The position numbers were made by a program, and so were the translations under genes. From Bacteroidota bacterium (GTDB lineage: Bacteria > Bacteroidota > Ignavibacteria > UBA10030), in assembly GCA_026416125.1 (NCBI GenBank), contig JAOAFT010000019.1, positions 1 to 41,510 on the forward strand: a stretch of DNA of 41,510 bases, read 5' to 3'. The notes below the pieces were generated by a model that saw nothing but the letters and a program-made list of their open reading frames with translations, was not told the DNA's origin and did no database searches. Below, piece after piece: positions 1,392 through 27,509 of the stretch (its first letter is position 1; every line of letters starts with the position of its first letter).

Positions 1392-1448
1392 AAGCTTGCC
1401 GGTGGGCGAATAAAACTAAGTGTGCCCATCGGCAAGCTTTGTTTTCTT
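1392..1448 (+). terminator. Rho-independent terminator after the first gene
   Basis: A 16-bp stem (1392-1407 with 1424-1439) contains one G-U wobble and a 16-nt loop. It is followed by a T-rich run (TGTTTTCTTT). It lies just downstream of the first gene and only 47 nt before the GH3 start at 1487, so it ends the upstream transcript or acts as a partial terminator inside a longer operon. Confidence 0.8.
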
Positions 1449-1486
1449 TAGATTCGATGTTCTTTTCATGCAAGTGGAGCGGTTCT

Positions 1487-3589
1487 ATGTTCAAAGAATG
1501 TTTTTCTCATCTCATTCTTCTTATACTCGTTAATATGATAACAATGAACGCACAAGACTTTGTTCCTCGCTCATACACTGAAGCGTTGCAATTGGCTGAT
1601 TCTATTATTGCACTCATGACTGAAGAAGAACTCTTGAGCTATATTGGAGGAGATCGGTCGTTTTTTATTCGCCCAATTCCACGACTTGGAATTCGTGAAG
1701 TGTATATGACCGATGCAACGCAAGGTGTTCACATTCGGGAAAAGTTCCATGATGCAGATTTGTCAAAGTATGCTCTTAGAAAATCGACAGCGTTCCCGTG
1801 TCCTTTAGCACTTACTGCAACATGGAATACTGAATTGGCTTATAAGTATGCTCGAGCAATTGGTGAAGAATGTCGTGCTGGTGGAATAGGCATTCTCCTT
1901 GGTCCTGGATTAAATCACTATCGTCACGCTCAGTGTGGTAGGAATTTCGAATACTTCGGGGAAGATCCTTTTCTTCGTTCTCAACTCATTGCTGCATACG
2001 TACAAGGTGTTCAAAGCACAGGAACAGTTGCAACACTAAAACATTTTGTCGCGAATAATACTGAATATTACCGTCGGAAAAGTAACTCAATTATTGATGA
2101 ACGAACACTTCACGAAATATACCTCCCAGGATTCAAAGCAGGTATTGATGCAGGCGCTACAGCAGTAATGACATCATATAATTTGCTCAATGGGGAATGG
2201 TGCGGACAGAGTGAATATGTGATCAATGTACTGCTACGGAAAGAATTAGGATTTAAGTACCTTGTGATGACTGATTGGTGGTCGGTCTATGATGGGACGA
2301 AAGTAATAAAAAGCGGCCAAGACTTGGAAATGCCATGTGCGCTTGCGGTTAAAAATGCCAGAGAACTTGTAGTTGATGGAAAAGTTTCGATGGATGATAT
2401 TCGGCGCATGGTACGGAACATTCTTACAACGTACTTCAGAATGCGACTTGATAAACGAAAGCCAGATCCTCAATACTATGAAACGTTCCCGTATCATGAA
2501 CATCTTGCTCTTGAGGTAGCACGGGAGTCAATAGTGTTACTGAAAAACGAGAATAAAATCCTCCCCATCAAAAATACTGTAACAACAATTCTTGTGACTG
2601 GTGAGTATATTGAAAAGCTTGCAATGGGTGGTGGTTCTGCTGAAGTAAAAGGGTACAATACAATAACACTTCTCGATGCACTAAAACAAGAATTTCACGA
2701 TCGAATCGTATACAAGAAAGCTCCTACCGATGAAGACATACGAACAGCTGATGTGGTACTCTGCAATGTTGGTACGTTTGATAGTGAAGGCTGGGACCGT
2801 CCGTTTGAATTACCTGCCCCACAAGAAGATCTTGTAAATCGTTGTGTTACGCTTAATCCACGAACAATTGTCGTCGTGACCTCAGGAGGTGGTGTGCGAA
2901 TGACAGCGTGGGCTCCTCGTGCAAAAGCTATCCTCTATGCGTGGTATGGTGGGCAAAATGGAAGTATAGCAATTGCAGAAGTGCTCAGTGGAAAGGTAAC
3001 ACCATCAGGGAAATTGCCAATTACCATCGAGCGTGAATTTTGTGATTCACCAGGGTACGGATATATCCCAATTGGTGAAAAACTCTATACAGGTTGGCAT
3101 GGTGAAGAGGAAAAAGAGCATCCAGTGTACAACATTGAATATAAAGAAGGAATTTTCACTGGTTACAGATGGTACGACGCGAAAAACATCGAACCACTCT
3201 ATCCATTTGGATTTGGGTTGTCGTATACAACGTTCGAGTATTCGGATATAAAGGTTTCGCAGGAAAAAATAAAACAAGGTGAAACACTCATTGTTTCATG
3301 TAAACTTAAGAACATAGGTATGGTGAATGGGAAAGAAATTGTACAAGTGTACATTCGTGATGTGCAGTCATCGGTACCGAGACCACCTAAAGAGTTAAAA
3401 GGGTTTGTTAAAGTTGCACTGAACGCAGGTGAACAAGTAAGGATCGAAATTCCATTAAAAACTGAATCGTTCGCTTTTTGGAGTCCGCAGGAAAGGAAGT
3501 GGGTTGTTGAGCCTGGAGAATTTGAACTACTCATTGGTACATCGTCACGTGATATCCGCTTGAAGAAGACAATCGTCGTAGAGGATTGA
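1487..3589 (+). CDS. bglX: GH3 family beta-glucosidase
   Basis: A 700-residue exported glycoside hydrolase family 3 enzyme. It would release terminal beta-linked glucose (or a related sugar) from oligosaccharides, probably in the periplasm. I chose ATG 1487 because a GGAG lies 7 nt upstream and translation then begins with a signal peptide (hydrophobic LILLILV, cleavage near NAQ). Possible starts at 1439 and 1457 overlap or abut the terminator. The TIM-barrel domain has the nucleophile Asp263 in VMTDWWS and the substrate-binding KHF motif. The second alpha/beta domain carries SEGWDR, where Glu434 is the likely acid/base. The C-terminus is the fibronectin-III-like domain typical of GH3 (about 600-690, ELKGFVKV). 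No T9SS domain is present, so it is probably not surface-displayed. Substrate specificity (beta-glucoside versus another beta-glycoside) cannot be read from sequence alone; the gene symbol is by similarity of architecture. Confidence 0.9.
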   Translation: MFKECFSHLILLILVNMITMNAQDFVPRSYTEALQLADSIIALMTEEELLSYIGGDRSFFIRPIPRLGIREVYMTDATQGVHIREKFHDADLSKYALRKSTAFPCPLALTATWNTELAYKYARAIGEECRAGGIGILLGPGLNHYRHAQCGRNFEYFGEDPFLRSQLIAAYVQGVQSTGTVATLKHFVANNTEYYRRKSNSIIDERTLHEIYLPGFKAGIDAGATAVMTSYNLLNGEWCGQSEYVINVLLRKELGFKYLVMTDWWSVYDGTKVIKSGQDLEMPCALAVKNARELVVDGKVSMDDIRRMVRNILTTYFRMRLDKRKPDPQYYETFPYHEHLALEVARESIVLLKNENKILPIKNTVTTILVTGEYIEKLAMGGGSAEVKGYNTITLLDALKQEFHDRIVYKKAPTDEDIRTADVVLCNVGTFDSEGWDRPFELPAPQEDLVNRCVTLNPRTIVVVTSGGGVRMTAWAPRAKAILYAWYGGQNGSIAIAEVLSGKVTPSGKLPITIEREFCDSPGYGYIPIGEKLYTGWHGEEEKEHPVYNIEYKEGIFTGYRWYDAKNIEPLYPFGFGLSYTTFEYSDIKVSQEKIKQGETLIVSCKLKNIGMVNGKEIVQVYIRDVQSSVPRPPKELKGFVKVALNAGEQVRIEIPLKTESFAFWSPQERKWVVEPGEFELLIGTSSRDIRLKKTIVVED

Positions 3590-3610: not shown

Positions 3611-5791
3611 ATGAAAAATGTGTGTAATTCGATCGGTGTTTTGCTTATGGTGTTTCTTTGTGTAGTTTTTCATGCACAAAGCCAAACACTTACGAGAATT
3701 CCATACAATAACCAGCAACTGTTCCTCAGTGGTGTGAATATGGCGTGGATGAGTTTTGCAAATGATATTGGCCCAGGTAGTGATAATTATGAGGCCTTTG
3801 CTGACTTCTTCCTTGCCGTTCACGACAGTGGTGGGAATGCTGTGCGGTGGTGGCTCCATACCGATGGTACAGTAACACCAGAATTTGATGCACATGGATT
3901 TGTTGTAGGACCAGGGAGCGGAACAATTCAGGATTTAAAAACAATTCTCGATCTTGCCTGGCAACGAGAAGTAGGTATTATACTCTGTCTATGGTCATTT
4001 GACATGCTCCGAAGTTCAAAACCGGCAGTAGTACTAAACCGAAATACAAAACTGCTCACAGATACTGCATACACAAATGCATACATTAGAAATTGCCTCA
4101 TTCCAATGGTAGACTCCCTCAAAGGTCATCCTGCAATTATTGCATGGGAAATCTTCAACGAACCAGAGGGGATGAGTACAGAATTTGGTTGGAGTGAAAT
4201 TAATCGAGTACCGATGTCGTCAATTCAACGGTTTGTGAACCTGTGTGCAGGTGCAATTCATCGCACTGATCCCCGTGCTCTTGTTTCAAATGGCTCCGTG
4301 AGTATCAAGACATTAACGGATGTAACGCCTAGTGCATCCGTTGCTAAGATTAGTGAACAACAACAACGAGAAATAGCAGCATATATTAAGCAAAAGAACA
4401 ATCTAATGGCATCGGTGGAAGAAATTTCCATTCATCTCAATCGACTCGCCACATTGGCGAATTACAACTACTACAGCGATGAACGGTTAGTTGCAGTTGG
4501 AGGGGATGCTCAAGGATACCTTGACTTCTACATGTTTCATTACTATGGAGCAGATCTTACCTCATCTCCATTTGTAAAGTCGGCAACAACATGGAATTCT
4601 TCAAAGCCACTCGTTGTTGGTGAGTTCCATATGACGACAACGAATGGTATTCCGAAAGAGAATCTTTACCATGTGCTATATGGAAACGGGTATGCCGGTG
4701 CACTTTCCTGGTCTTGGACAGACAATGCTGTCTCGCAAAAGACAGATATTCTTAAAGCACTTGGTGCGATGTACCGTTTATTCAAGAACGATATCGATGT
4801 TAACGGCATTAGTGGAGATTGGCCCAATGTAACGCTTGTTTACCCTCGAAATAATGCACAATTTAGTTCTGGAGCACTGATTACCCTCGTTGCAAGAGCA
4901 ACCGATACAGATGGAATCATTACCCGTGTCGAATTCATAGTTAATGATACATTATTGATTGGAATCGATTCTACAGCTGATTCGACGAATTATTATTCAT
5001 ATACGTGGACAGGGATGAGAGATGGATTGTATACTCTGAAAGCAAAAGTATACGATGATCGTGGTAATTACAGAACCTCCGCGAAAGTAAGTATACAGGT
5101 TGGACTTCCACCGTTTATTCGATACGAGGCGGAACGGGCAGTACGCGTTGGTCTCAACATGACAGTGAAGAGTGATCCTAATGCAAGCGGTGGTTATTTT
5201 GTTGATGTGGCAACGAATGCACCAGGTACTACTATTACGTGGAAGATTGTGAATGTTCTCGGTCCTGGTACATATCCGATTATTTTTGGATACAACTTGT
5301 ACTATAACACACCTAAAGGACAATTCATTAATGTTAACGGTGTCCGAGTTACGGAATTGATGTTCGATGGTCCAGTAAAGGTTTGGCAGGAAAAGTCGAT
5401 TAATGTGTTTCTAAAAGCGGATACAAATACTATTCAGATGGAGATGTCATGGGGGTGGATGTACGTCGATTACTTAGCAGTTCCACGTGAGGTCGTAACT
5501 GATCTTGAGGAAACAAAAGAAATTATTACGGAATTTTCCCTTGAACAAAATTATCCCAATCCATTTAATCCAGTTACAAGAATTCGCTATGTAATCCCCT
5601 TGAAAACTCATGTACGGTTAACAATCTACGATATTCTTGGACGGCAGGTGTGCCGATTGGTGGATGACATTCTCCCTGCTGGGGTATATACTACTGCGTG
5701 GTCCGCTGCAAATCTCCCGAGTGGTGTGTATTTCTATCGGCTTGAAGCTGGCTCGTTTGTACAAAGTCGAAAAATGCTTGTTTTGCGGTAA
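3611..5791 (+). CDS. Modular GH5 endo-glycanase (mannanase/cellulase-like), T9SS-exported
   Basis: A 726-residue multidomain enzyme starting 21 nt after the GH3 gene, with AGGGAG before the ATG. Domain order: signal peptide (about 1-24, cleavage near HAQS); GH5 catalytic barrel (about 25-390) with acid/base Glu184 in WEIFNEPEG and nucleophile Glu338 in VVGEFH; an Ig-like domain (about 405-500, DTDGIITRVEFIV); a CBM35/CBM6-like module beginning at YEAE (about 502-625); and a T9SS type-A sorting domain (about 643-726, QNYPNPFNP, LPSGVYFYRLEAG). The RWWLHTDG and LCLWSFDML segments belong to a GH5 group I cannot place in a subfamily. Given the GH26-epimerase fusion two genes downstream, an endo-beta-mannanase or glucomannanase role is plausible, but cellulase activity is possible. 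Expected location is the cell surface or outside the cell. Confidence 0.85.
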   Translation: MKNVCNSIGVLLMVFLCVVFHAQSQTLTRIPYNNQQLFLSGVNMAWMSFANDIGPGSDNYEAFADFFLAVHDSGGNAVRWWLHTDGTVTPEFDAHGFVVGPGSGTIQDLKTILDLAWQREVGIILCLWSFDMLRSSKPAVVLNRNTKLLTDTAYTNAYIRNCLIPMVDSLKGHPAIIAWEIFNEPEGMSTEFGWSEINRVPMSSIQRFVNLCAGAIHRTDPRALVSNGSVSIKTLTDVTPSASVAKISEQQQREIAAYIKQKNNLMASVEEISIHLNRLATLANYNYYSDERLVAVGGDAQGYLDFYMFHYYGADLTSSPFVKSATTWNSSKPLVVGEFHMTTTNGIPKENLYHVLYGNGYAGALSWSWTDNAVSQKTDILKALGAMYRLFKNDIDVNGISGDWPNVTLVYPRNNAQFSSGALITLVARATDTDGIITRVEFIVNDTLLIGIDSTADSTNYYSYTWTGMRDGLYTLKAKVYDDRGNYRTSAKVSIQVGLPPFIRYEAERAVRVGLNMTVKSDPNASGGYFVDVATNAPGTTITWKIVNVLGPGTYPIIFGYNLYYNTPKGQFINVNGVRVTELMFDGPVKVWQEKSINVFLKADTNTIQMEMSWGWMYVDYLAVPREVVTDLEETKEIITEFSLEQNYPNPFNPVTRIRYVIPLKTHVRLTIYDILGRQVCRLVDDILPAGVYTTAWSAANLPSGVYFYRLEAGSFVQSRKMLVLR

Positions 5792-5831: not shown

Positions 5832-6659
5832 ATGCTGAAGATGTTCCTCTGTTCTGTTGTTCTTATTCAATCGAATTGTTTTTCTCAAGGAATACTACCC
5901 GATACCCTTACAAAAGGGTACAACTTCATTCAAACAACTGTGTATTCAGCAGAAGAGGATATGAAGCTCTTAAAACTCTTTGAAGGATTACGTGTTGCTG
6001 ACATCTCCGATGCAATGGATATCGTGGGGTTACCGAACACAGGCCTTGTCGACCCATCGATCCATCCTGATTGGATTGATGAAAAGGAACTCACACATCA
6101 ATTCCGGGGTATTGCTGTCACTGCTCGGTACGTCCCTACCCAGCGTCCCGATCGTCCAGCACCAGGGCAAAAGTTTTCAGAATGGGAAGGACACTTCTAC
6201 ACAGCATATTCCCACGAGGCATTCGCAAAGCTTATTCGTCCAGGAACAGTTGTTGTAATTGATGATGTAGAAGAGAAAGACATTGGTTCGATCGGATCGT
6301 ACAATATTCTCTATTGGAAGAGTCTTGGAGCTGTTGCTGTTGTAACCGATGCAACAGCACGGGATACAGACGAAATAGCACTTGAACGCGTACCACTCTA
6401 CCTCAAGAAGAAAGGGCGTGGAATTCGACCTGGGCGGAATGAGTTAGAGTCTGTTAACCGTCCTGTTGAAATTGGTGGTGTACTAGTTTGCCCAGGCGAT
6501 GTTGTGGTAGGAGATCGAGACGGTGTTGCTGTTGTCCCACGTGCTGTTGCGGAACAAGTTGCCAAAGTGGCTCGGGAAATTCTTGAAAAGGATAAAGATG
6601 CGCGTACACACCTCTACAAGCAACTCGGACTCCCAACGGATAAAACAGTGAACAAATAA
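5832..6659 (+). CDS. Exported RraA-like protein (HMG/CHA aldolase fold)
   Basis: A 275-residue RraA-family protein. Family members either inhibit RNase E or are class II 4-hydroxy-4-methyl-2-oxoglutarate/oxaloacetate-type aldolases or related lyases. I chose ATG 5832 (AAAGGA about 9 nt upstream); the longer open frame from 5637 lies inside the GH5 gene. This start gives a short signal-peptide-like N-terminus (MLKMFLCSVVLIQ...CFSQG), unusual for a family normally found in the cytoplasm. Family features seen: EGLRVADISDAMD, a GSYN segment preceding GAVAVVTDATARDTDE (metal/substrate-binding Arg-Asp pair), and GDVVVGDRDGVAVVP near the end. A role on keto acids or lactonised sugar acids derived from uronates would fit GH105 in the same operon, but that is inference. 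Other RraA-like proteins have no known reaction. Confidence 0.8.
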   Translation: MLKMFLCSVVLIQSNCFSQGILPDTLTKGYNFIQTTVYSAEEDMKLLKLFEGLRVADISDAMDIVGLPNTGLVDPSIHPDWIDEKELTHQFRGIAVTARYVPTQRPDRPAPGQKFSEWEGHFYTAYSHEAFAKLIRPGTVVVIDDVEEKDIGSIGSYNILYWKSLGAVAVVTDATARDTDEIALERVPLYLKKKGRGIRPGRNELESVNRPVEIGGVLVCPGDVVVGDRDGVAVVPRAVAEQVAKVAREILEKDKDARTHLYKQLGLPTDKTVNK

Positions 6660-6706
6660 TTCTTGCACAACAGCATACTCGAGATTGTTGAGAGGAGAAA
6701 TTGGCA

Positions 6707-9052
6707 ATGAGTTCCAAAGCTTCTGAGTACTCAGGGTGGTGGTCGCTTCTTCACCTGTGTTTCGTTGCTCTAATTCTATCATCCAATGGTTCTCTCAGTG
6801 CAGACAGCACAAAAACACTTGCTCGAACAGTACAGCACGAAATGTTCAATGTTTTAACGAAGGAATTTACTTGTTGGTATCCACGTGCAATCGATACTGT
6901 GTACGGCGGGTTTTTGAGTGATTTCAATTCGCTCTGGCAACCCGAGGGTCAACAGAACAAAATGATAGTTACACAAGCTCGGCATGTATGGTCCACATCG
7001 AATGCAGCGATGTTCTACCAAAAGGATAATAGCTTCAAAACAATTGCTCAGCATGGTGTACAGTACTTGGCAACTACACTGTGGGATTCAATATACGGTG
7101 GGTTCTATACCTATGTTACGCGGGAAGGAGTGCCGATTGAACTGAGCGGGACCAGTGCAAAGACAGCGTACGGGAACGCGTTTGCACTCTATGGACTCGC
7201 AACATACTTTTGGGCAACACACGATACCAGTGCTCTTGAGTTGGCAAAGAGGACATTTCGATGGTTAGAAGAACATAGTTACGATCCTGTGTACGGCGGA
7301 TACTTCCAGTTTCTCTCACGAGAAGGAACCCCGTATGTTACTGGTTATGGTGTAACCCCACCTAAAGATTACAATTCTTCAATTCACCTCCTCGAAGCAT
7401 ATACTGCCCTGTACCGTGTATGGAACGATTCATTGCTCAAAGTACGACTTGCTTCGCTCCTTCATATTGTTCGTGATACTCTCTGCGATCCTCGTGGATT
7501 TTTAAAGATGTTTTTTACACGAGAGTGGCGTCACGTTTCGTTTCAAGATTCGTCCGATGAGGTAAGGAAACGGTTTGCATACTACGATCACATTTCATTC
7601 GGTCATGACATCGAAACTGCATACTTACTTCTCGAAGCATCCGAAGCCCTCTATGGAGAGTACGATGCCATAACATTATCGGTGGCAAAAAAACTGGTCG
7701 ATCATTCAACCACCTACGGATGGGATACACGGGTAGGTGGCTTATTCGATCGGGGATACTATTTCAAAGGACAGACAAAGCCAACAATACTCCAAGAAAC
7801 AAAAGAATGGTGGGGACAAGTTGAAGCACTCAATTCGCTTCTCTTATTTTCAACGCTCTATCCAAACGATCCTCATCGGTACTTCCAACAATTCCTTGCA
7901 CAGTGGGAGTATTGTAAACGATACCTCATCGATAGTGTTAACGGAGGATTTTATTGGGGTGGAATTGATCGAGAACCATACCATCGTAAAGGTCCTAAGG
8001 CTTCAATTTGGAAAGGGAATTATCATACATCACGTGCGCTCATCAATTGCATCCAACAGCTTCGTACGCTGAGTTTATCGTATGGTGATGCACGATATGC
8101 TCCTGCCAATCCGAACGCAACACAAGAGGCACGTAAACTTCTTGCGTTTCTTTATTCTATCAAAGGGAAACGCATCATTGCAGGGCACCACAATGATGTA
8201 CGTACTCCTGATGAATATCCTCGGCGTTTGAAAGAAATTACAGGGAAGAGGCCTCTCTTGTGGGGTGCCGATTTTATTCACTACTATCTTCCCGGAAATG
8301 CCCAAGCCGTTGTCGATGAAGCGTACCGGAAGTACAAAGAAGGATACATTATTACGTTGATGTGGCATGCTGGTCGCCCTCAAGATGATCCCCCGTTTGG
8401 TTGGAAAGAGAGCATACAAGCAAAACTCACCGATGATGAGTGGAATGAGTTAATAACACCCGGGACTCGGTTACATACGCGATGGCTTGCACAAGTGGAT
8501 ACTATTGCCTTCTACCTTAAACAACTCAAAGCAAGAGGAGTACCGGTACTGTGGCGACCCTACCACGAACTCAATGGAATCTGGTTCTGGTGGGGAAATC
8601 GTAAAGGTGAAAACGGTTCGGCAAAATTATTCCGTATGATGTACGAACGGTATGTGAATGTCCATCATCTCGATAATCTCCTGTGGGTCTGGAATGCGAA
8701 TGCACCACGCCAACGAATGAATGATGAAGCGTATGCATACGAAGACTATTTTCCTGGTCTTGCGTACGTCGATGTTTTAGGCTCCGATATTTATCGGAAT
8801 GATTATCGACAAAGTCACCACGATGAGCTTGTAGAATTAGGGAAAGGAAAAATTATTGCACTTGCTGAAGTAGGTCAAGTACCAACGCCAAAAATTCTAC
8901 AACGTCAGCCATATTGGTGCTGGTTTATGGTGTGGAGTTTTTTCATCGAGAGCCAGTACAACAGTCAAGAAGTCCTACGCCTTCTCTACAACGACCCGCG
9001 TACAATAACGTGGGAAGAGTATAGCGCCAGTACCAAAACGGAGCAACGATGA
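6707..9052 (+). CDS. AGE-type 2-epimerase fused to GH26 beta-mannanase
   Basis: A 781-residue two-enzyme fusion. ATG 6707 is preferred: AGGAG sits about 9 nt upstream, whereas TTG 6701 would be too close. A signal peptide occupies about 1-34 (LLHLCFVALILSSNGSLSA). Residues about 37-455 form an (alpha/alpha)6 AGE-superfamily domain like cellobiose/mannobiose 2-epimerase: QARHVWSTS, GNAFALYGLA, GHDIETAYLLLEA (His300, catalytic in the family), ETKEWWGQVEAL and WKGNYHTSRAL (His440). Residues about 466-770 form a GH26 domain: IIAGHHND, LMWHAGRP, WRPYHELNGIWFWWG with acid/base Glu621, and ALAEVG with nucleophile Glu721. GH26 cuts beta-1,4-mannan; the epimerase converts a reducing-end mannose to glucose (or the reverse) in a beta-1,4 disaccharide. 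Both sets of catalytic residues look intact. The stop is followed after 1 nt by the next gene's ATG, implying translational coupling. Epimerase substrate preference is not readable from sequence. Confidence 0.92.
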   Translation: MSSKASEYSGWWSLLHLCFVALILSSNGSLSADSTKTLARTVQHEMFNVLTKEFTCWYPRAIDTVYGGFLSDFNSLWQPEGQQNKMIVTQARHVWSTSNAAMFYQKDNSFKTIAQHGVQYLATTLWDSIYGGFYTYVTREGVPIELSGTSAKTAYGNAFALYGLATYFWATHDTSALELAKRTFRWLEEHSYDPVYGGYFQFLSREGTPYVTGYGVTPPKDYNSSIHLLEAYTALYRVWNDSLLKVRLASLLHIVRDTLCDPRGFLKMFFTREWRHVSFQDSSDEVRKRFAYYDHISFGHDIETAYLLLEASEALYGEYDAITLSVAKKLVDHSTTYGWDTRVGGLFDRGYYFKGQTKPTILQETKEWWGQVEALNSLLLFSTLYPNDPHRYFQQFLAQWEYCKRYLIDSVNGGFYWGGIDREPYHRKGPKASIWKGNYHTSRALINCIQQLRTLSLSYGDARYAPANPNATQEARKLLAFLYSIKGKRIIAGHHNDVRTPDEYPRRLKEITGKRPLLWGADFIHYYLPGNAQAVVDEAYRKYKEGYIITLMWHAGRPQDDPPFGWKESIQAKLTDDEWNELITPGTRLHTRWLAQVDTIAFYLKQLKARGVPVLWRPYHELNGIWFWWGNRKGENGSAKLFRMMYERYVNVHHLDNLLWVWNANAPRQRMNDEAYAYEDYFPGLAYVDVLGSDIYRNDYRQSHHDELVELGKGKIIALAEVGQVPTPKILQRQPYWCWFMVWSFFIESQYNSQEVLRLLYNDPRTITWEEYSASTKTEQR

Positions 9053-9053
9053 A

Positions 9054-10163
9054 ATGGAACGGCGAGAATTTCTCAAACGCAGTGGATTGGCAGTTGTGGG
9101 CATGGTTGTAACACACGTAGGGTGTCAGCCCAGTGTACTCCGTGAAAATCCTATGGAACGATTTCGGCGATACTATGGATTCAATCTCACGGAAAAAACT
9201 GGTGGACTCGGACCACGACGAAAATTCAATGAACGCGATTTCGAGATGATGGCTGAGTGGGGATTCAACTTTGCACGAATTCCGATGTCGTACTGGAACT
9301 GGTCATCACCACAGGATTGGTATACGATTCAGGAGGATGTATTTGATGATATTGATGAGGTTATCGAATTCGGAAGGCAGTACGGCATTCACATCAATTT
9401 AAACTTCCATCGAATACCTGGGTACTGCATTAACGGACGCGACCGGGAACCGATGGATTTGTTCGACGACACACCAGAGCGTATGGCGAAAGCACTGGAG
9501 GCAGCAGCGTACCATTGGAAGTACTTTGCGCGGCGCTACAAAGGGATCTCGAGTACACTCCTCAGTTTCGATTTGCTAAACGAACCACCGAAGAATACAA
9601 ATGATCAGCGGTACGAAAAAATCGTTCGCACATTGGTCCAAGCAATCCGTGAAGAAGATCCTGAACGCCTCATCGTAGTTGATGGGAAAGATATTGGCCG
9701 TACTCCGATGACTGGAATTGTTGATTTAAATGTTGTGCAAAGCACACGTGGCTACGATCCAATGGCTGTAAGCCACTACACAGCGTCGTGGGTGCCCGAT
9801 GATGAGAAAGAAACGTTCAAAGCACCAACATGGCCACTTCTTGCGGATAACGGAAAGTTATGGGACAGAGACGCTTTGCGGGAAAAACTTATCGACCGTT
9901 GGACACCTGTTACCTCCCGCGGAGTTGTAGTGCACGTTGGTGAGTGGGGATGCTTCAATAAAACACCACATACAGTATGTTTAGCGTGGATGAAAGATAT
10001 CCTTTCACTGTGGCGAGAAGCACGATGGGGCTGGGCTCTATGGAATTTACGTGGGAGTTTTGGAATACTCGATAGCGAACGAACTGATGTTTCGTACGAA
10101 GAGTTTCGAGGACATAAACTCGATCGGAAGATGCTTGAACTCTTGCTGGAATATAAAACATGA
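9054..10163 (+). CDS. GH5 family hydrolase with Tat-like signal
   Basis: A 369-residue single-domain GH5 endo-glycosidase (cellulase/mannanase clan GH-A). The start is fixed by the 1-nt gap from the upstream stop and a GGAG 10 nt before it. The N-terminus MERREFLKRSG matches the twin-arginine RRxFLK pattern, followed by a hydrophobic segment and a Cys in HVGC, which may be an imperfect lipobox. Export as a folded, possibly lipid-anchored protein is therefore likely. Catalytic residues: acid/base Glu177 in LLNEPP and nucleophile Glu297 in HVGEWG; NLNFHRIPGYCING supplies the typical barrel histidine. No CBM and no T9SS domain, pointing to periplasmic action on oligosaccharides. The stop overlaps the next start (ATGA), so the two GH5 genes are translationally coupled. 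Exact substrate unknown. Confidence 0.87.
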   Translation: MERREFLKRSGLAVVGMVVTHVGCQPSVLRENPMERFRRYYGFNLTEKTGGLGPRRKFNERDFEMMAEWGFNFARIPMSYWNWSSPQDWYTIQEDVFDDIDEVIEFGRQYGIHINLNFHRIPGYCINGRDREPMDLFDDTPERMAKALEAAAYHWKYFARRYKGISSTLLSFDLLNEPPKNTNDQRYEKIVRTLVQAIREEDPERLIVVDGKDIGRTPMTGIVDLNVVQSTRGYDPMAVSHYTASWVPDDEKETFKAPTWPLLADNGKLWDRDALREKLIDRWTPVTSRGVVVHVGEWGCFNKTPHTVCLAWMKDILSLWREARWGWALWNLRGSFGILDSERTDVSYEEFRGHKLDRKMLELLLEYKT

Positions 10164-12118
10164 TTCGGAAAATCTTATTCTGTATTCTTTTTGCGTTTGG
10201 CATTCCGCACTGGATGGAAGCTCAACGCGCACCCTTTACCAGAGGTGTGAACTTGACAAACTGGTTTCAAGTAGATGCTCCAAGGCAAATTCAGTTTACG
10301 AAATACACGAAACAGGATTTTCAGAACATCAAAGCTCTTGGTGCAGATGTTATTCGATTACCAATAAAACTCCACGCTATGACAAATGGTGCACCATCGT
10401 ATACACTCGATCCGCTTTTCCTCATGTTTCTCGATAGTGCTGTAACATGGGCAGAAGAGTTGGATATCCACTTAATTTTGGATAACCACACGTCCGATGG
10501 GACACAACCAACCGATACTGCTATTGGCAATGTCTTAATACCCGTCTGGACACAAATGGCGCAACACTACAAAAATCGATCGAGGAAAATTTACTATGAA
10601 GTACTGAACGAGCCACAAGGAATATCTGATGCAAAGTGGAATGAAATACAGCAACGTGTCGTTGCCGCCATTCGTACTGTCGATACTATTCACACAATTG
10701 TGGTAGGTCCGGCAAATTGGAACAGTTACTACAACTTATCTGCAATGCCTGTCTATAGTGATACAAATTTAATTTATACTTTTCACTTCTATGATCCCTT
10801 CGTTTTCACACACCAGGGAGCAGGGTGGACGAGCCCAAGCCTGGTGAATCTTCAAGGAGTGCCATTTCCCTACGATGCAGCACGCATGCCAGTCTGTCCG
10901 AGTGATTTGAGAGGAACATGGGTTGAAACAAGTTTGCAATATTACCCTACCGATGGTACAGTGCAGAAAATTCAGGAACGAATTAATGTAGCACTCAACT
11001 TTCGCTCGCTGCGCAAGGTACCGATTTTCTGTGGTGAATTCGGGACTCTCATGACGTACGCACCAGAAGCTGATCGAGCATACTGGTACAATGTTGTTCG
11101 TTCGTATTTCGACCAATATGATATTCCATGGACAATCTGGGATTACCAGGGCGGCTTTGGACTCTTTAAAAAGAATAGCAACGAACTGTTTAATCACGAT
11201 CTCAATGTACAATTACTCGAAGCATTGGGATTCAACATTCCATTGCAAACGCCATACGTACGGAACCCGGATTCAGGTGCATGTGTAATCTATACAGATT
11301 ACATCGGGAAGGGAATTGTGAACTCATCATACACCGCGGGTCAATTTGATTTGTATAATACTCAGAACCCTGCTGTTGGGCAATTCTGCATTTACTGGAG
11401 TGGTGCGCAGCAATACCAAGCATTGTCTTTCGATTTCAGTCCGAACAAAGATTTATCGTACCTCAAAAGCAGTGGGTACGTTCTCGATTTTTGGGTAAAG
11501 GGGAGTGGTGCAACGTCGATCGATGTTCGTTTCGTCGATTCGAAAACGAGCGAGACTGACCACCCGTGGCGAATGCGAGTTACACTTAATAGTTCCGTTG
11601 TAAACTTCAATAATCAATGGCAACATCTTCGCATACCTCTTTCAAATTTCGTTGAACATGGTGCGTGGGATAACAATACATGGTACTCGCCCCAAGGTTT
11701 GTTCGATTGGACAGACGTCGATAAACTTGAAATTGTCGCTGAGTACGGAGCACTTACCAATGTTCAGCTCTGGTTTGACGAGATAGTTATTACACAACCT
11801 ACAAGCGTTGTTGTATACGAACCACTGTACATTCCACGACAATATGCACTTCTTCAGAATTTCCCGAATCCTTTCAATCCAATAACGACCCTTGCATTTT
11901 CTCTTGCCGGAGAAGCGAACGTTACATTAGCAGTGTATGATGTGCTGGGGAGAGAACTCCGAACGCTTCTGAATGAACGGAAGGGAGCTGGGAGCTACTC
12001 AGCAGTGTTCGATGGGAGTGATTGTGCATCAGGAATCTATATTGTGCGCTTCTCTGCAATGCCGGTTGATGGAAAGGAAGTGTTTGTTCAATCCAGGAAA
12101 ATACTGTTGTTAAAGTAG
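10160..12118 (+). CDS. GH5 endo-glucanase-like enzyme with CBM and T9SS domain
   Basis: A 652-residue secreted enzyme whose ATG overlaps the previous stop by 4 nt. Domains: signal peptide (about 1-21, cleavage after MEAQ); GH5 barrel (about 24-355) with GVNLTNWF at the first strand, acid/base Glu151 in YEVLNEPQG and nucleophile Glu293 in FCGEFGT; a galactose-binding-like beta-sandwich (about 370-550) with alternating aromatic residues and the ending VQLWFDEIVI, resembling CBM11/CIA30-type modules; and a T9SS type-A domain (about 570-652, QNFPNPFNP, VYDVLGRELRTLL). The GVNLxNW opening is common in GH5 cellulases and beta-glucanases, so it may attack the beta-1,4-glucan part of glucomannan or cellulose. 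It is expected at the cell surface, unlike its partner at 9054-10163, which lacks a sorting domain. Confidence 0.87.
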   Translation: MIRKILFCILFAFGIPHWMEAQRAPFTRGVNLTNWFQVDAPRQIQFTKYTKQDFQNIKALGADVIRLPIKLHAMTNGAPSYTLDPLFLMFLDSAVTWAEELDIHLILDNHTSDGTQPTDTAIGNVLIPVWTQMAQHYKNRSRKIYYEVLNEPQGISDAKWNEIQQRVVAAIRTVDTIHTIVVGPANWNSYYNLSAMPVYSDTNLIYTFHFYDPFVFTHQGAGWTSPSLVNLQGVPFPYDAARMPVCPSDLRGTWVETSLQYYPTDGTVQKIQERINVALNFRSLRKVPIFCGEFGTLMTYAPEADRAYWYNVVRSYFDQYDIPWTIWDYQGGFGLFKKNSNELFNHDLNVQLLEALGFNIPLQTPYVRNPDSGACVIYTDYIGKGIVNSSYTAGQFDLYNTQNPAVGQFCIYWSGAQQYQALSFDFSPNKDLSYLKSSGYVLDFWVKGSGATSIDVRFVDSKTSETDHPWRMRVTLNSSVVNFNNQWQHLRIPLSNFVEHGAWDNNTWYSPQGLFDWTDVDKLEIVAEYGALTNVQLWFDEIVITQPTSVVVYEPLYIPRQYALLQNFPNPFNPITTLAFSLAGEANVTLAVYDVLGRELRTLLNERKGAGSYSAVFDGSDCASGIYIVRFSAMPVDGKEVFVQSRKILLLK

Positions 12119-12131
12119 AAAAGGTTCCTCT

Positions 12132-14615
12132 ATGCGTGTGTACGTATTGCTCATTCTTGTGAGTATTTCTCCAGGGTTTCTTTTTTCACAAGTATCCGTT
12201 CAAGACAAGTTCATAGTGAATGAACGAGGATACTACGAAGCATCGAATGCAACAATAACGGTCTTCGATGATTTCTATCCTGAGGGTCACCAAGGTGGGA
12301 TTACGCTTATCCAATGTGGAAAACGACTTGCTGCAAATGGCGATGTACGTCTTGAAGATGCTCCGGGTCAATGGTCTCCTGTGCCTAAGTTTGGAAACAA
12401 AGAAATTGATAGAGTGAAGGGAACAATAACTGTACGTCTCTGGTTTCCCGACTCAAGTAAGAATCGAAAAGGGTTCAATCCCATTGAGTACCCCGATGTA
12501 ACATTTCGATATCGCATTGTGACAATACCTGACGGACACAGTATTCGTATACGGGTTACTCTTGAAGATTCGCTGCCAAAAATTTGGAGAGACAAGGTTG
12601 GGTTCAATCTCGAAATATTTCCTGGTGAATACTTTGGTGAAGCATTTCTTATGGATACTGTTGCTGGAATATTCCCACGCCAGTTCAATGGTCCAGTGGT
12701 ACGAACGTTGGGAAAAGAACTACGAATTGTACCGTTAGCTCAGGGTAAACGGTTAATCGTAGCACCTGGGAACAACACCAAACAATTTTCAATATCATCC
12801 CTGCGTAATACACTCACACTTCTCGATGGTAGGGCATTCCATAATAACGGTTGGTTTGTTGTACGTTCAACATTCGGCAGTGCACCAGTGATTGAGTGGG
12901 TACTCACACCAACGATTCAACCAGGGTGGCGTTCTACGCCTGTCATTCAAGTATCGCAGGTCGGATTTCATCCTCTCCAACCCAAATTTGCTGTCGTTGA
13001 ACTTGACGCAAGGACAACAACCTATCAATCACTTGAACTGGTGCGCATTGATGGAGAATCTCCTCTGCCAAATGTGAACGAAATCGTAGTGAAAAAGGAT
13101 ACAGTACCAAATGTGTGGGGCGATTTCTTACGTTCAAAATATCTTCGTTTTGATTTCAGTGAAATCGAAAACGAAGGATTGTATAAAATTCGGTATGGTA
13201 CTATTTCCTCCCACACTTTCCCGATTCGTAAAGACATATACGAAACAATCTGGCAACCGACGTTGCATACGTTCCTTCCAGTACAAATGTGTCACATGAG
13301 GGTAGAAGATCGTTATAAAGTATGGCATGGTCTCTGTCACATGGACGATGCACGGATGGCTCCGTGTAATCACATCCACTTCGATGGGTACCAGCAAGGA
13401 AATACAACGCTGACGCGTTTTCAACCAGGTGATCACGTTCCCGGACTCAACGAAGGCGGATGGCACGATGCAGGTGACTATGATTTGCGCATAGAATCCC
13501 AGGCAGAAACAGTGTATAAACTTGCGTTAAGCTTTGAGTTATTTCCGAATGAGTATGATGAAACGACGATCGATCAGAAACGCAAACTGGTTGTACTTCA
13601 CCAACCAGATGGAATACCAGATTTTCTGCAACAAATTGAACATGGAGTACTTTCAATTGTCAATGCGTACGATTCAATGGGTCGATTGTACCGTGGAATT
13701 ATTTGCCCAACACTCAAGCAGTACGTGCATCTTGGAGATGCTGCAACAATGACCGATAACCTTGTGTATAAGGTACGCTCATATGATCCCATTCTTCAGA
13801 AGCCACTTCCGGAAGACGACCGATGGGTTTTTACAGAGCATAATCCTCAGCGTGAATTATATGTTGCACAATGTCTTGCTGCAGCTTCGAGAGTACTTCG
13901 TACTTCAAATTCACAGCTTGCCGCAAAGTGTCTTCGAGTGGCTGAAAAACTCTTTTGGGAGAGTGATTCCTCAGCACCGGTTGCGAAGTACTGTGTCGCT
14001 GCAGAATTACTGATGACGACCGGGAAACCAGAATACAAAAGCTACGTTCTCGATCACTTCAACCTGCTGGAAACGAATCTTCCTTCTTGCCTTGAGATTG
14101 TGGGCAGAGTTGTCAATGCACTTGGTGAACCAACACTTCGTCAGCGGATGGAACCGATTGTTCAGAAAGTACAAGAATACTTTGAGGAAGAAAGAACTAG
14201 AAATCCTTACAATGTTCCATACCATCCGAGAATATGGGGTGCCGGATGGGAGATCCAGTCTATTGCAGTAAAAAAGTATCTTCTTGCTCTCGGCTTTCCG
14301 AATACCTTTGATCGAACATCAATATTTTATGCATTGAATTTTCTTTTTGGATGTCATCCCGGGGAGAATACAGCTTCCTTTGTTTCAGGTGTTGGAGTAA
14401 ATTCGGTTACGGTGGCGTATGGTGTAAATCGAGATGAGTGGTCATATATACCAGGAGGCATTGTGAGTGGTACCGCTCTCATTCGTCCTGATGTTCCAGA
14501 GTTGAAAGTGTGGCCCTATTTATGGCAACAATCGGAATATGTCCTTGGTGGTGGCACCGGTGATTTTCTCTTTTTAATGTTGGCTGCTGAAGCAGAAATG
14601 AAAAAACTTAAATGA
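12132..14615 (+). CDS. GH9 family glycoside hydrolase (endoglucanase-like)
   Basis: An 827-residue exported inverting glycosidase, 13 nt after the previous gene, with AAAGG before the ATG. The signal peptide ends near FSQ (about residue 20). An additional N-terminal beta-rich region (about 22-270) precedes the CelD_N-type Ig-like domain (about 275-365, QVSQVGFHPLQPKFAVV). The (alpha/alpha)6 catalytic domain follows, with GGWHDAGDYD (Asp446 and Asp449, catalytic-base motif). Near the end are LFGCHPGENTASFVSGVG and a Glu at 802 in QQSEYVLGGGTGDF, the likely proton donor. GH9 enzymes cut beta-1,4-glucan; some exo-acting members cut glucosaminides or decorated glucans. The long extra N-terminal region and the lack of a T9SS domain are notable and suggest a periplasmic oligosaccharide-acting enzyme. 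Exact specificity unknown. Confidence 0.87.
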   Translation: MRVYVLLILVSISPGFLFSQVSVQDKFIVNERGYYEASNATITVFDDFYPEGHQGGITLIQCGKRLAANGDVRLEDAPGQWSPVPKFGNKEIDRVKGTITVRLWFPDSSKNRKGFNPIEYPDVTFRYRIVTIPDGHSIRIRVTLEDSLPKIWRDKVGFNLEIFPGEYFGEAFLMDTVAGIFPRQFNGPVVRTLGKELRIVPLAQGKRLIVAPGNNTKQFSISSLRNTLTLLDGRAFHNNGWFVVRSTFGSAPVIEWVLTPTIQPGWRSTPVIQVSQVGFHPLQPKFAVVELDARTTTYQSLELVRIDGESPLPNVNEIVVKKDTVPNVWGDFLRSKYLRFDFSEIENEGLYKIRYGTISSHTFPIRKDIYETIWQPTLHTFLPVQMCHMRVEDRYKVWHGLCHMDDARMAPCNHIHFDGYQQGNTTLTRFQPGDHVPGLNEGGWHDAGDYDLRIESQAETVYKLALSFELFPNEYDETTIDQKRKLVVLHQPDGIPDFLQQIEHGVLSIVNAYDSMGRLYRGIICPTLKQYVHLGDAATMTDNLVYKVRSYDPILQKPLPEDDRWVFTEHNPQRELYVAQCLAAASRVLRTSNSQLAAKCLRVAEKLFWESDSSAPVAKYCVAAELLMTTGKPEYKSYVLDHFNLLETNLPSCLEIVGRVVNALGEPTLRQRMEPIVQKVQEYFEEERTRNPYNVPYHPRIWGAGWEIQSIAVKKYLLALGFPNTFDRTSIFYALNFLFGCHPGENTASFVSGVGVNSVTVAYGVNRDEWSYIPGGIVSGTALIRPDVPELKVWPYLWQQSEYVLGGGTGDFLFLMLAAEAEMKKLK

Positions 14616-14627
14616 GGAGGAAGATCT

Positions 14628-16820
14628 ATGAGCAGGATGATATATGTATTGGTGGTATGCGTTGTTGTTCCAATACCACTTTTTGCTGCAGTAACCATTG
14701 ATGCTGACAATCCCTACATCCAGTACTACGGTCGGTGGGATTTTTCAAATCCAAAAATCCCAACACACTCCTGGCCTGGGGTATACATTTACACGAAATT
14801 TGAAGGAACAAGCATCGGGTGGATTACGAACGATAACGGTTGCTGGTACAATGTTTTCATTGACGATTCACTCTACCTCGTCTTCAAAGGAACCTCCTCA
14901 GCATACACAACATACACGCTTGCAAGCGGATTGAGGGATACGGTCCATTCACTCCTCATTACCAAACGAGGTGAAACAACGTGGACGAAGTTTGGTTTCA
15001 AAGGTTTTGTGCTCGATGACGGGAAAAAGCTTGTTGAACCACCACAGAAGCCATCCCGTAAGATTGAATTCATCGGTGATTCGTACACGAGTTGTTCTGG
15101 TAATGAGTGGACGGAAGCAGGTGCTCCGCCGAATGATTCATATACAAATATCTACAATGGCTTTCCATCAATTACGGCACGACACTATGGTGCACAGTAC
15201 CATGTAACAAGTCGAAGTGGATTTGGGCTTGTTGTCGACTATCAAGCGAATTATAATAACAACCTTCCCGATTATTTCGATCGAACGCTCTATGCTTACT
15301 CAACACCCAAGTGGAATTATGACCAATGGATTCCCAATGTTGTTGTCATTTGTCTTGGGTTGAATGATTACAATGGTTGGGGAGGGTACTCAGGTCCTGT
15401 TCATCCGGATTACGCTGCACTCTACAAGAAAAAGTACCATGAATTTATTGGACGCCTGATGGATGTGTATCCCGGTGCAAAAATTCTCTGTGTGGCGGCA
15501 AATGACGTTGCATGGATTAAGCAGCAAGTATCGGAAGTTGTTACCGAAGAGCGTGGTCGAGGCAATATAAATGTGTTCTATACGTATTTTCCGTACTACA
15601 CTGGTGAGTACGTCAATAATGGACACCCAAACGTTAGTGCACACAACAAAATTGCTCAAGTGCTAATTTCTGCTCTCGATTCTATGGATGCCTGGACACC
15701 GTACATCGATACCATTCCTCCGGCGTTTGTCAATGTACCGGAAACCACTATTACAGCAACATCTCTTCCGTTCGTCCTCTCAGTCTCAACAGATAGTTAT
15801 GCGAACGTTCGCTTGAGCACCAACGATACACCATACGCACTGATGGAGACAAATTTCACAACAACAGGTACCCGTACACATAGTATTACACTCTCAGGTG
15901 AACAGGGGAGGGAGTACACATACTACCTGCGTGCAATTGATCGGTATGGTAATGAAACTCCAACTTCGACAGTGCTACGTGTTCGTGTGGATACTGTGAA
16001 GCAATCGGTTCGCTGGAGCACGTTTACGTATGATCATTCAATGTGGAAAAGTGGGAGTTCACCGTTGGGAAACGATGGATCAACTTCAATTGTCACTGCA
16101 GTACAACCTGCATCGGTTGTGTATTTCCGAAAGGAATTTGACATTCCTGATCCTTCGAAAACAGGTGGTGGAATTCGTATTCACATTAAAGGTCACGATG
16201 GTGCTGTGGTCTATCTCAACAATACCTACCTTCAGAGTATTAACCTTCCAACTGGGGCAAATCCGGCATACTCTGTCTTTGCAATCCAACCCAGAACACT
16301 CAATGACTCTGTTGTGTTGAACTATAGCAATCCACTAAATTTCCTCCGTGTTGGAAAAAATGTTGTTTCAATAGAAATTCACTCACGGTACTCACTAACA
16401 CCATCGATCCTCTTTGACGGAAAAGTGTACGATAGGGCTGGGAACATTTATGCCGATTTCGGATCAAGGTGGTACTACTTTGATGCCGGGTATACTCCTG
16501 TTGATCAACTGATTGATAAATCAACGAATAGTATTGTTCAGGAGGGTTTCGTTCCACACACACTCGTGCTTCAACAAAACTATCCCAACCCATTTAATCC
16601 TTCTACAACAATAACATTTACTCTACCGCGTTCTTCAAATGTCCAATTGCACATTTACAATCTCTTGGGCCAATGTGTATCCACTGTTGTAGATACGAAA
16701 CTCGAAGCTGGTGAGCATAGGATCAATTTCGATGGTTCGTCATTTGCGGCTGGGGTGTACTTTTATCGTTTAAAAACAGAAGAACAAACTGTAACAAAAC
16801 GAATGGTGCTTTTGAAGTAA
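14628..16820 (+). CDS. CE2-type SGNH acetyl esterase, modular, T9SS-exported
   Basis: A 730-residue esterase predicted to remove acetyl groups from mannan, glucomannan or xylan. GAGGAGG lies just before the ATG. Domains: signal peptide (about 1-20, cleavage near LFA); an N-terminal jelly-roll (21-140) as in CE2; the SGNH hydrolase domain (about 145-355) with EFIGDSYTSC (nucleophile Ser152), ICLGLNDY (block III) and NGHPNVSAH (His333); an Ig/FN3-like domain (about 362-455); a second beta-sandwich (about 460-610) with GHDGAVVYLN; and a T9SS type-A domain (about 645-730, QNYPNPFNP, AAGVYFYRL). At the usual SGNH Asp position, three residues before His, there is Asn; several CE2 enzymes are known to work as a Ser-His dyad, so activity is still plausible. 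Its place among mannan/glucan enzymes supports deacetylation at the surface before GH26 and GH5 action. Confidence 0.83.
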   Translation: MSRMIYVLVVCVVVPIPLFAAVTIDADNPYIQYYGRWDFSNPKIPTHSWPGVYIYTKFEGTSIGWITNDNGCWYNVFIDDSLYLVFKGTSSAYTTYTLASGLRDTVHSLLITKRGETTWTKFGFKGFVLDDGKKLVEPPQKPSRKIEFIGDSYTSCSGNEWTEAGAPPNDSYTNIYNGFPSITARHYGAQYHVTSRSGFGLVVDYQANYNNNLPDYFDRTLYAYSTPKWNYDQWIPNVVVICLGLNDYNGWGGYSGPVHPDYAALYKKKYHEFIGRLMDVYPGAKILCVAANDVAWIKQQVSEVVTEERGRGNINVFYTYFPYYTGEYVNNGHPNVSAHNKIAQVLISALDSMDAWTPYIDTIPPAFVNVPETTITATSLPFVLSVSTDSYANVRLSTNDTPYALMETNFTTTGTRTHSITLSGEQGREYTYYLRAIDRYGNETPTSTVLRVRVDTVKQSVRWSTFTYDHSMWKSGSSPLGNDGSTSIVTAVQPASVVYFRKEFDIPDPSKTGGGIRIHIKGHDGAVVYLNNTYLQSINLPTGANPAYSVFAIQPRTLNDSVVLNYSNPLNFLRVGKNVVSIEIHSRYSLTPSILFDGKVYDRAGNIYADFGSRWYYFDAGYTPVDQLIDKSTNSIVQEGFVPHTLVLQQNYPNPFNPSTTITFTLPRSSNVQLHIYNLLGQCVSTVVDTKLEAGEHRINFDGSSFAAGVYFYRLKTEEQTVTKRMVLLK

Positions 16821-23415: not shown

Positions 23416-24630
23416 ATGGGTAAATCCCATGTATTGCTCGCCTGTCTTCTAATAAGTATTGTGTTCTACAGTGTCAGCTCTCGTCAAAAGAATGAATCAG
23501 CTGCTCGAATGTTTTTGGATGATTTCTCTGGTCCTTCGCTACAGTATGACCCACGAGGCATTGATGGGTGGTCCTTTTTTACTGGTGATGGTCGCGCACG
23601 CATGACATTGACAGTGTCAGGTGAAGGATATGCAACAATCACCGTCGATGCCTCTGATGATAAGCTTGGTATTTGGTGGGCACTGATCAAGCGCTGTGTT
23701 TCTCGGACAATGAATTTAGCACTTCTTCGCGATCCACACTATGAATTCAGGATTGAAGCACGCATTCGGGTGAGTGATGCGCCTAAACGTGTAAATCTTC
23801 ACTTAAATACTCAGCGAACAACGGATTTCCATACACACCTTATGGAATTTGACATTCCCGATACTGTATCGTGGCATATCATTAGTATGACAACACAAAA
23901 CTTCGATGCCGGACCTGGTGATACAGTATTCGGTCAGCTTGCGCTTATGGATTGGGGATTTGAACAGTATCGAGTAGATATTGACTACTTTAAAGTATCA
24001 ATCGTTCACGTCGATTCCATAGGACCGGATCAGGGAGTACAGGTACCATACCATCCACCACTTCCAAATTTTGAAAGCATGTCACACCACATTCCTGTAC
24101 TCGAAGCAGCGACAGTTGATACAATATACACTGATACCAATTTCTCATCCTGGTATTGCGCAGATAACGAACATCACTCGGACCTCCTCGTTGTTGGAGA
24201 TAGTAAAATCGTTCTCTTGCGGTGGGATGTGAGTACACTCAAAGGGAAACAAGTACGCGGACCAGGAGTGTTAGAGTTAACGACCCATGCAATTCAGCGA
24301 CTGAGTGATCGCACGCGAGACTTTGGGATTCTGCGTGTATGTGAAATCATCGGCGGACAGGAACAGTGGGATTCAAGAACAGTAACTTACGAATCGTGGA
24401 AAAACCAAGCACCATTCGCTCGTGTGGTAAATTCGCAAATGATTATTGATGTGCCTGTTACAGAACAACGTGGTGGGAAAACGTACTGTACTCTCTCGAA
24501 CCCTGTACTACAACGGTTACTTGATACACGAACGAAAGGTATCGCACTCCGAGCATTGGGATTACTACACGTAACATTCTTTAAAGACTCTGTTAACCGA
24601 CCCGTTCTTCATTGTACTGTTGATCAATGA
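23416..24630 (+). CDS. Secreted protein with CBM96/DNRLRE-like C-terminus
   Basis: A 404-residue exported protein that I do not recognise as an enzyme. ATG 23416 is preceded by AAAGGAAGG. Residues about 5-22 are a signal peptide. The N-terminal half (about 35-200; FLDDFSGPSL, then alternating beta-strands, DYFKVSIV) looks like a concanavalin/jelly-roll carbohydrate-binding fold. The C-terminal part (about 235-404) has the shape of a CBM96/DNRLRE domain: TDTNFSSWYCADN, LLRWDVSTLKGKQVRGPGVLEL, WDSRTVTYESW and RTKGIALRALG. The stop overlaps or closely abuts the next gene, which encodes a sugar-binding protein, then a kinase and a regulator. It may be an accessory glycan-binding component of that sensor operon (inference from operon position). 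No catalytic motif identified and no T9SS domain. Confidence 0.7.
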   Translation: MGKSHVLLACLLISIVFYSVSSRQKNESAARMFLDDFSGPSLQYDPRGIDGWSFFTGDGRARMTLTVSGEGYATITVDASDDKLGIWWALIKRCVSRTMNLALLRDPHYEFRIEARIRVSDAPKRVNLHLNTQRTTDFHTHLMEFDIPDTVSWHIISMTTQNFDAGPGDTVFGQLALMDWGFEQYRVDIDYFKVSIVHVDSIGPDQGVQVPYHPPLPNFESMSHHIPVLEAATVDTIYTDTNFSSWYCADNEHHSDLLVVGDSKIVLLRWDVSTLKGKQVRGPGVLELTTHAIQRLSDRTRDFGILRVCEIIGGQEQWDSRTVTYESWKNQAPFARVVNSQMIIDVPVTEQRGGKTYCTLSNPVLQRLLDTRTKGIALRALGLLHVTFFKDSVNRPVLHCTVDQ

Positions 24631-24641
24631 GGGAATGCCAT

Positions 24642-25982: not shown

Positions 25983-25993
25983 TGAGGTGGACC

Positions 25994-27496: not shown

Positions 27497-27509
27497 GAGA
27501 GTATGTTGT

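Follow-up and report, generated by a model that had tools for sequence, protein, structure and literature searches.

A predicted exported protein joining an AGE-superfamily 2-epimerase to a Muricauda GH26A-type GH26 domain in Ignavibacteria-type bacteria and Bacteroidota

Published models of mannan use in Bacteroidota describe a cascade that runs from mannanase to epimerase to phosphorylase and in which the epimerase is a cytoplasmic enzyme (PMC6643232, PMC6784887), and the first-pass annotation of the DNA studied here had cited this cellular location correctly. The Bacteroides fragilis-type route (Senoura 2011, as cited by PMC6643232 and PMC4285296) combines a mannobiose 2-epimerase with a mannosylglucose phosphorylase; its epimerase and GH26 enzyme are separate, and the epimerase is taken as cytoplasmic. 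Among GH26 enzymes, the stand-alone GH26A of Muricauda sp. MAR_2010_75 (PDB 6q75) is most likely periplasmic according to its authors and carries an extra loop that blocks the +2 subsite. This enzyme was inactive on the commercial mannans and manno-oligosaccharides tested and active on a bloom mannan, and its authors' guess is that it is reducing-end specific and acts on manno-gluco-oligosaccharides (PMC9860051). The open-licence literature searched, with subscription journals mostly outside its scope, describes no fusion of an AGE-superfamily epimerase with GH26 and no exported epimerase of such type.

The locus presented here has a mannosylglucose phosphorylase, an epimerase and a GH26 domain in its genome, as in the B. 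fragilis-type route, and differs in that the epimerase and GH26 are fused behind a signal peptide. The window (the whole stretch of DNA analysed) is a contig of 41,510 bases from a 2.41 Mb genome that is 98.65% complete and comes from an uncultured lineage, its kin being Ignavibacteria-type bacteria. A single uninterrupted frame on the forward strand (ORF 6701-9052), with an ATG at 6707 and a purine-rich GAGGAG in front of it, encodes in 6707-9052 a signal peptide, a full AGE-superfamily epimerase and a full GH26 domain, in that order. Its features are as follows, with residues counted from the M at 6707.

6707..6802, forward strand, plausible signal peptide (MSSKASEYSGWWSLLHLCFVALILSSNGSLSA), hydrophobic core 2.93 over 9 residues
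6836..8074, forward strand, AGE-superfamily 2-epimerase domain, residues 44-456 (Pfam PF07221; AF2 fold match)
7385..7387, forward strand, H227, third active-site histidine, at the position of CsCE H188 (kept in 83/83 rows; PMC5726027)
7604..7606, forward strand, H300, acid/base histidine, equivalent to RmCE H259 and CsCE H247 (83/83 rows; PMC5726027)
8024..8026, forward strand, H440, acid/base histidine, equivalent to RmCE H390 and CsCE H377 (83/83 rows; PMC5726027)
8075..8101, forward strand, short inter-domain linker of about 9 residues (alignment of six fusions and N-termini of unfused Rufibacter GH26)
8102..9025, forward strand, Muricauda GH26A-type GH26 domain (Pfam PF02156; match to 6q75)
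8567..8569, forward strand, E621, catalytic Glu in RPYHELNG (invariant in six fusions)
8696..8746, forward strand, loop insertion around NAPRQRMNDEAYAYED, common to 6q75 (alignments)
8867..8869, forward strand, E721, catalytic Glu in ALAEVG (invariant in six fusions)

The first-pass annotation had proposed one signal-bearing protein made of both enzymes, and this is confirmed by a hydrophobic N-terminus and by complete Pfam profiles for both halves, each well above its cut-off: GlcNAc_2-epim at residues 70-423 (E 9e-34) and Glyco_hydro_26 at residues 470-772 (E 2e-52), both in the numbering of the 6701 frame. The residues that it named (H300, H440, E621, E721) and the motif EWWGQVEA are likewise all in place. 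A heuristic rather than SignalP finds at the N-terminus a cleavage-like site at A32|D33 and a hydrophobic core, LCFVALILS, whose mean hydropathy is 2.93, making a type I signal peptide plausible; the signals of homologues such as L053, L056 and L058 were called, again by heuristic, as SPI-like or of the lipoprotein type. The GH26 part begins at xAPVNPNAT, the motif that opens mature unfused GH26 proteins of Rufibacter. An AlphaFold2 (AF2) model of the fusion, built from 50 sequences, has a pLDDT of 92 and a pTM of 0.80.

The epimerase half belongs to the AGE superfamily by its PF07221 score (117.7 bits against a gathering cut-off of 23.4) and by its (alpha/alpha)6 barrel with two catalytic histidines and a third histidine, whose catalytic roles are taken from PMC5726027. 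The barrel, the triple-histidine centre and the N and WW positions are shared with RmCE, the cellobiose 2-epimerase (CE) of Rhodothermus marinus (3wkf; 9l8i with mannobiose), and the AF2 model superposes on 9l8i with a Z of 53.4 and an rmsd of 2.1 Å over 396 residues. Residues R92, Y155, F159, N223, E303, W368, W369, W435 and Y439 are conserved across the set and identical in RmCE. The fusion's epimerase differs from RmCE in being only about 28% identical, in its signal peptide, in its fused GH26 domain and in a longer loop before SFGHD. The Runella slithyformis mannose 2-epimerase RsME (8h1k) has the same fold, and its phmmer score to the AGE half is about equal to those of the CEs; it has D and F at the positions of N223 and W368, where the fusion clade is CE-like. 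The loop before SFGHD, its length read by eye from the sequences, has 22 residues in the fusion, between the 7 of RmCE and 5zig and the 30 of RsME. The WGWD motif of the RsME loop (Trp251, Asp254), which we take to be specific to mannose epimerases, was sought in the AGE half and is absent from its 22-residue loop. With 145 bits against a cut-off of 800 for the NCBIfam EpiA equivalog, the AGE half is not filed as EpiA. Judged by sequence, the clade of the fusion is CE-like but distinct, and the intermediate loop length means that disaccharide specificity of the AGE half is not assured.

The GH26 half combines the Pfam profile, a TIM barrel and two catalytic glutamates, and 6q75 is its nearest PDB entry by a wide interval (371 bits and 51% identity, the next entry scoring 161 bits). 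Its AF2 model matches 6q75 with a TM-score of 0.94 (target length) and a Z of 45. Close sequence, close structure and a loop insertion thus place it with Muricauda GH26A, with which it shares the catalytic glutamates; the Muricauda enzyme stands alone, whereas the domain described here is fused to an epimerase. In alignments the insertion around NAPRQRMNDEAYAYED is shorter in 3zm8, 3wdq, 7eet, 6hpf and GH26C-type proteins, and it probably corresponds to the loop reported to block +2. The first-pass call of a GH26 mannanase therefore holds as regards a complete GH26 domain and fails as regards an ordinary mannanase, since in the closest relative +2 is blocked and no activity was seen on commercial mannan (PMC9860051). 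One Bacteroidales MAG carries GH26A-type and GH26C-type domains in tandem in one ORF (L131:4464-6542).

A frameshift or assembly join at 8060-8110, which the first-pass annotation had considered, is ruled out as an explanation of the fusion, as the architecture recurs in several genomes. Single ORFs with both domains, at 55-60% identity, are present in G062, G192, G181, G258 and G264, and the architecture is also found in the named contigs L052-L056, L058 and L059, several of the G- and L-labelled carriers being the same genome under two names. MAG contigs with the full fusion include PLMK01000026, DMMN01000235, JADLEA010000097, JAFGLB010000219, PMJQ01000051 and PMCM01000265 (55-60% identity) as well as JAOZLK010000087 (45-57%). 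The carriers are Ignavibacteria-type and Bacteroidota MAGs, and H300, H440, E621 and E721 are invariant in an alignment of six full-length fusions. Partial copies also occur: in PMMO01000133 (L057) the epimerase runs into GH26 with the remaining GH26 in a second frame, L060/G170 stops at a contig end and G216 is interrupted by N runs. The AGE-GH26 fusion is a real, conserved and recurrent architecture made from known families.

The pairing has also arisen in other forms. A Tannerellaceae MAG (L086, JAISZY010000206.1) encodes a CE-type AGE followed by a GH26A-type domain with the same insertion, behind a lipoprotein-type signal. The order of domains is that of our fusion, and the difference lies in the AGE half, which scores 338 bits to RmCE, groups with RmCE in the tree and is 28% identical to that of the source fusion; from these relationships L086 is an independent fusion whose epimerase comes from the classical CE group. 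It is a single MAG contig, and a search of 395 genomes of the phylum gave no second fusion of its type. In the GH26 tree (in which the row L014_2_fus was mis-segmented and is disregarded) the Ignavibacteria-type fusion halves form one group (81/82) whose sister is L070, where the two genes are adjacent and not fused, and L058 (Bacteroidales) pairs with a GH26 that is not fused to AGE. A quick tree of the AGE halves, from which L086 was left out, rejected a single clade of all fused rows and with it a single origin (AU p 7e-6). Part of that rejection may be due to nested rows that have lost their GH26 half. Hence, we claim an independent origin only for L086 and regard one for L058 as possible.

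Unfused neighbours complete this picture. In Rufibacter (L085, L098) the AGE and GH26 are overlapping separate genes and, on their ORFs, were rejected as fusions; in L070 and G007 unfused AGE and GH26 genes are adjacent. Among 294 genomes of the class, with fused ones left out, a close AGE is found in 4/5 of those with GH26A and in 14/281 of those without (Fisher p 5e-5), counts that are approximate, with the top candidates per genome scored. G203 and G369 have GH26A-type genes, and no close exported AGE was found in them. A search of viral contigs gave no result.

Signals for export are also present on epimerases outside the fusion. An N-terminal hydrophobic signal was called by heuristic in 73/81 AGE rows with a judgeable N-terminus. 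Among the 8 rows that lack one, four (L073, L078, L079, L080) are cytoplasmic paralogues beside an exported copy and one (L123) is an AGE internal to a GH9-AGE fusion. In those four loci the exported and cytoplasmic paralogues lie in tandem. Hosts of the exported form include Mucilaginibacter, Rufibacter, Pontibacter, Spirosoma, Chitinophagaceae, Prolixibacteraceae, Calditrichota and Gemmatimonadota. On these N-terminal signals, members of a large AGE clade spanning Bacteroidota, Ignavibacteria, Calditrichota and Gemmatimonadota are as a rule exported, which makes the AGE-GH26 fusion one variant within a broader exported module. Among the neighbours of exported AGE observed in this analysis GH9 is the most frequent, with relatives in 35/79 loci, mostly less than 400 bp away, and in the neighbour survey every unfused AGE locus with GH26A in its flank also has GH9. 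In L123:7616-11332 and L137:8032-11874 a single ORF, about 1240-1280 aa long, encodes both GH9 and AGE, a fusion of the epimerase to its other frequent neighbour, and GH94 genes lie near AGE in L061, L065 and L071. The AGE ORF L043:9131-10657 has an N-terminus that weakly matches the RraA-like protein of the present cluster (36%, E 3.6e-7), possibly through a deletion joining the RraA signal region to AGE.

Around the fusion, the window holds a cluster of genes whose products were assigned by Pfam.

1439..3589, forward strand, GH3 enzyme
3611..5791, forward strand, GH5-CBM35 with T9SS tail, candidate surface depolymerase
5832..6659, forward strand, exported RraA-like protein, upstream gene (PF03737)
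9054..10163, forward strand, GH5 with Tat-like N-terminus, downstream gene (PF00150)
10160..12118, forward strand, GH5 with CBM30-like region and T9SS tail
12132..14615, forward strand, GH9 enzyme
14628..16820, forward strand, CE2 esterase with T9SS tail

Four proteins of the cluster carry T9SS tails (a CBM35 protein, GH5-CBM35, GH5/CBM30-like and CE2), and the fusion, GH9, GH5 and GH3 have none, a division that suggests cutting at the surface and trimming in the periplasm. The first-pass proposal that release of manno-oligosaccharides and conversion of their reducing end are coupled outside the cytoplasm stands in so far as both domains are complete and predicted to be exported; the absence of a T9SS tail from the fusion, set against the four proteins that have one, makes oligosaccharide processing in the periplasm more probable than extracellular release from the polymer. 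The RraA-like neighbour is 73-78% identical to proteins beside exported AGE in L049, L053, L055, L069, L141 and L142, and the downstream GH5 is 65-66% identical in the AGE clusters of L049, L069, L141 and L142. This RraA-like protein (aldolase/regulator fold) is conserved more than the enzymes. At 24627-28961 lies a cassette of a solute-binding protein, a membrane histidine kinase and a sigma-54 response regulator, possibly an oligosaccharide sensor, which is found again next to the fusion or to an exported AGE in L054, L055, L059, L061, L065, L066 and L071.

Genes for the use of Man-Glc lie elsewhere in the genome. On contig C66 (L051) a GH130 scoring 496 bits to the B. fragilis mannosylglucose phosphorylase (3was) directly follows an SSS-type symporter. 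Homologues of this phosphorylase cluster with exported AGE in L049 and L055, and in Agaribacillus (L064) one lies 46 bp after the exported AGE. The presence of the phosphorylase together with these neighbourhoods makes Man-Glc a sensible product. On contig C33 a GPH symporter and a GH94 accompany a GH130 of the mannooligosaccharide-phosphorylase type (L048:1139-6007). This GH130 was rejected as a mannosylglucose phosphorylase, being nearest to TM1225 and mannooligosaccharide phosphorylase, and the GH94 scores higher against the chitobiose phosphorylase 8bou than against cellobiose phosphorylases. The genome has two AGE genes: the fusion, which is not a cytoplasmic stand-alone epimerase of the B. 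fragilis type, and a separate cytoplasmic paralogue on C33. No match to PF07980, the SusD family sought as the mark of a canonical SusCD-type PUL, was found in the 98.65% complete genome.

The reading that we favour, tentatively and at somewhat less than an even chance, is that the fusion is a periplasmic bifunctional enzyme acting at the reducing end of (gluco)manno-oligosaccharides and feeding Man-Glc to the cytoplasm. T9SS-exported GH5 enzymes would cut acetylated (gluco)mannan at the cell surface, and the fragments would enter the periplasm. There the AGE half would open the reducing-end ring and convert Man and Glc into one another at C2 to yield Man(n)-Glc, and the GH26 half, its +2 side probably blocked, would trim that same end, preferring or needing an epimerised end at +1. 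Repeated rounds would leave Man-Glc for import by the symporter, and the GH130 mannosylglucose phosphorylase would split it into Man-1-P and Glc. Among the possible benefits listed in the first-pass annotation (hiding the product, avoiding inhibition, a preferred import form), the last agrees best with this reading. The enzyme activities, the specificity at +1, the sequence of steps, the placing in the periplasm and the transporter are what we infer from complete epimerase and GH26 active sites with AF2 matches to RmCE and 6q75, from the CE-like N223 and W368 that set the AGE half apart from RsME, and from Muricauda GH26A, which has the insertion in common, is blocked at +2, inactive on commercial substrates and suggested to use manno-gluco substrates. 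The same reading draws on the independent L086 fusion, the unfused neighbours (Rufibacter, L070, G007) and the co-occurrence, as well as on the B. fragilis-type phosphorylase beside the SSS symporter and the occurrence of such phosphorylases near exported AGE. Against it stand the intermediate length of the AGE loop before SFGHD, the GH26A-type genes of G203 and G369, for which no close exported AGE was found, the cytoplasmic AGE on C33, which could perform the epimerisation, and the missing PF07980 SusD, which leaves entry into the periplasm unexplained. An epimerase making Glc-ended manno-oligosaccharides would supply the very substrate guessed for Muricauda GH26A, and from that guess, the orphan activity and the convergent pairing we hypothesise that GH26A may require Glc at +1. 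A stricter version, which we consider rather doubtful, makes the GH26A subfamily a reducing-end exo enzyme that accepts only, or strongly prefers, Glc at +1; the epimerase would rewrite each new end from Man to Glc, and the pair would walk along the oligosaccharide releasing Glc until Man-Glc is left.

Nearly as likely as the favoured reading, and itself unlikely if taken alone, is the conventional order in a new compartment, in which GH26 hydrolyses mannan oligosaccharides first, without an epimerised end, and AGE then converts mannobiose and mannotriose to Man-Glc and Man2-Glc for import and phosphorolysis. The known order of mannanase, epimerase and phosphorylase (PMC6643232, PMC6784887), the mannosylglucose phosphorylase of this genome and the bloom mannan cut by Muricauda GH26A (PMC9860051) all agree with it, but the closest characterised GH26, blocked at +2, did not act on commercial mannan or manno-oligosaccharides. 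The pre-SFGHD loop, whose 22 residues come closer to the 30 of RsME than to the 7 of the CEs, and an RsME sequence score about as good as those of the CEs would fit a mannose 2-epimerase that equilibrates Man and Glc in the periplasm after GH26A has freed the reducing-end monosaccharide; this we think improbable, given the lack of WGWD, an N223 and W368 as in the CEs and unlike RsME, the unmistakable CE-type domain of the independent L086 fusion and the mannosylglucose phosphorylase in the genome.

It is slightly less probable again that cello- or gluco-oligosaccharides are the main target, with AGE serving the neighbouring GH9 and GH94 and GH26A dealing only with occasional Man. GH9 in 35/79 exported AGE loci, the GH9-AGE fusions of L123 and L137 and the GH94 genes of L061, L065 and L071 speak for such a role; however, GH26A is the partner of AGE in most fusions of the set, and the mannosylglucose phosphorylase, CE2 and CBM35 indicate mannan. 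Least probable, and by our estimate very improbable, is that one half is catalytically silent, a scaffold or binding module, so that nothing is coupled: Muricauda GH26A did seem inactive in most assays, yet throughout the fusions both halves keep the same catalytic residues.

If the stricter version of the favoured reading holds, a reducing-end exo enzyme that reads Glc at +1 would also explain the apparent inactivity of Muricauda GH26A. The predicted signals place a reducing-end 2-epimerase, taken to be cytoplasmic in the published mannan models covered, outside the cytoplasm across many environmental Bacteroidota and relatives, and the fusion joins it in one protein to a GH26 subfamily in which the member with a known structure shows an unexplained inactivity. 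Their main value is that the substrate question of Muricauda GH26A becomes testable with one cheap substrate, epimerised manno-oligosaccharides. The recurrence of the epimerase/GH26 pairing in other bacteria suggests that swapping Man for Glc at a chain end is coupled, outside the cytoplasm, with cutting that chain, and the exported epimerase/GH9/GH26A module is a candidate glucomannan processing unit.
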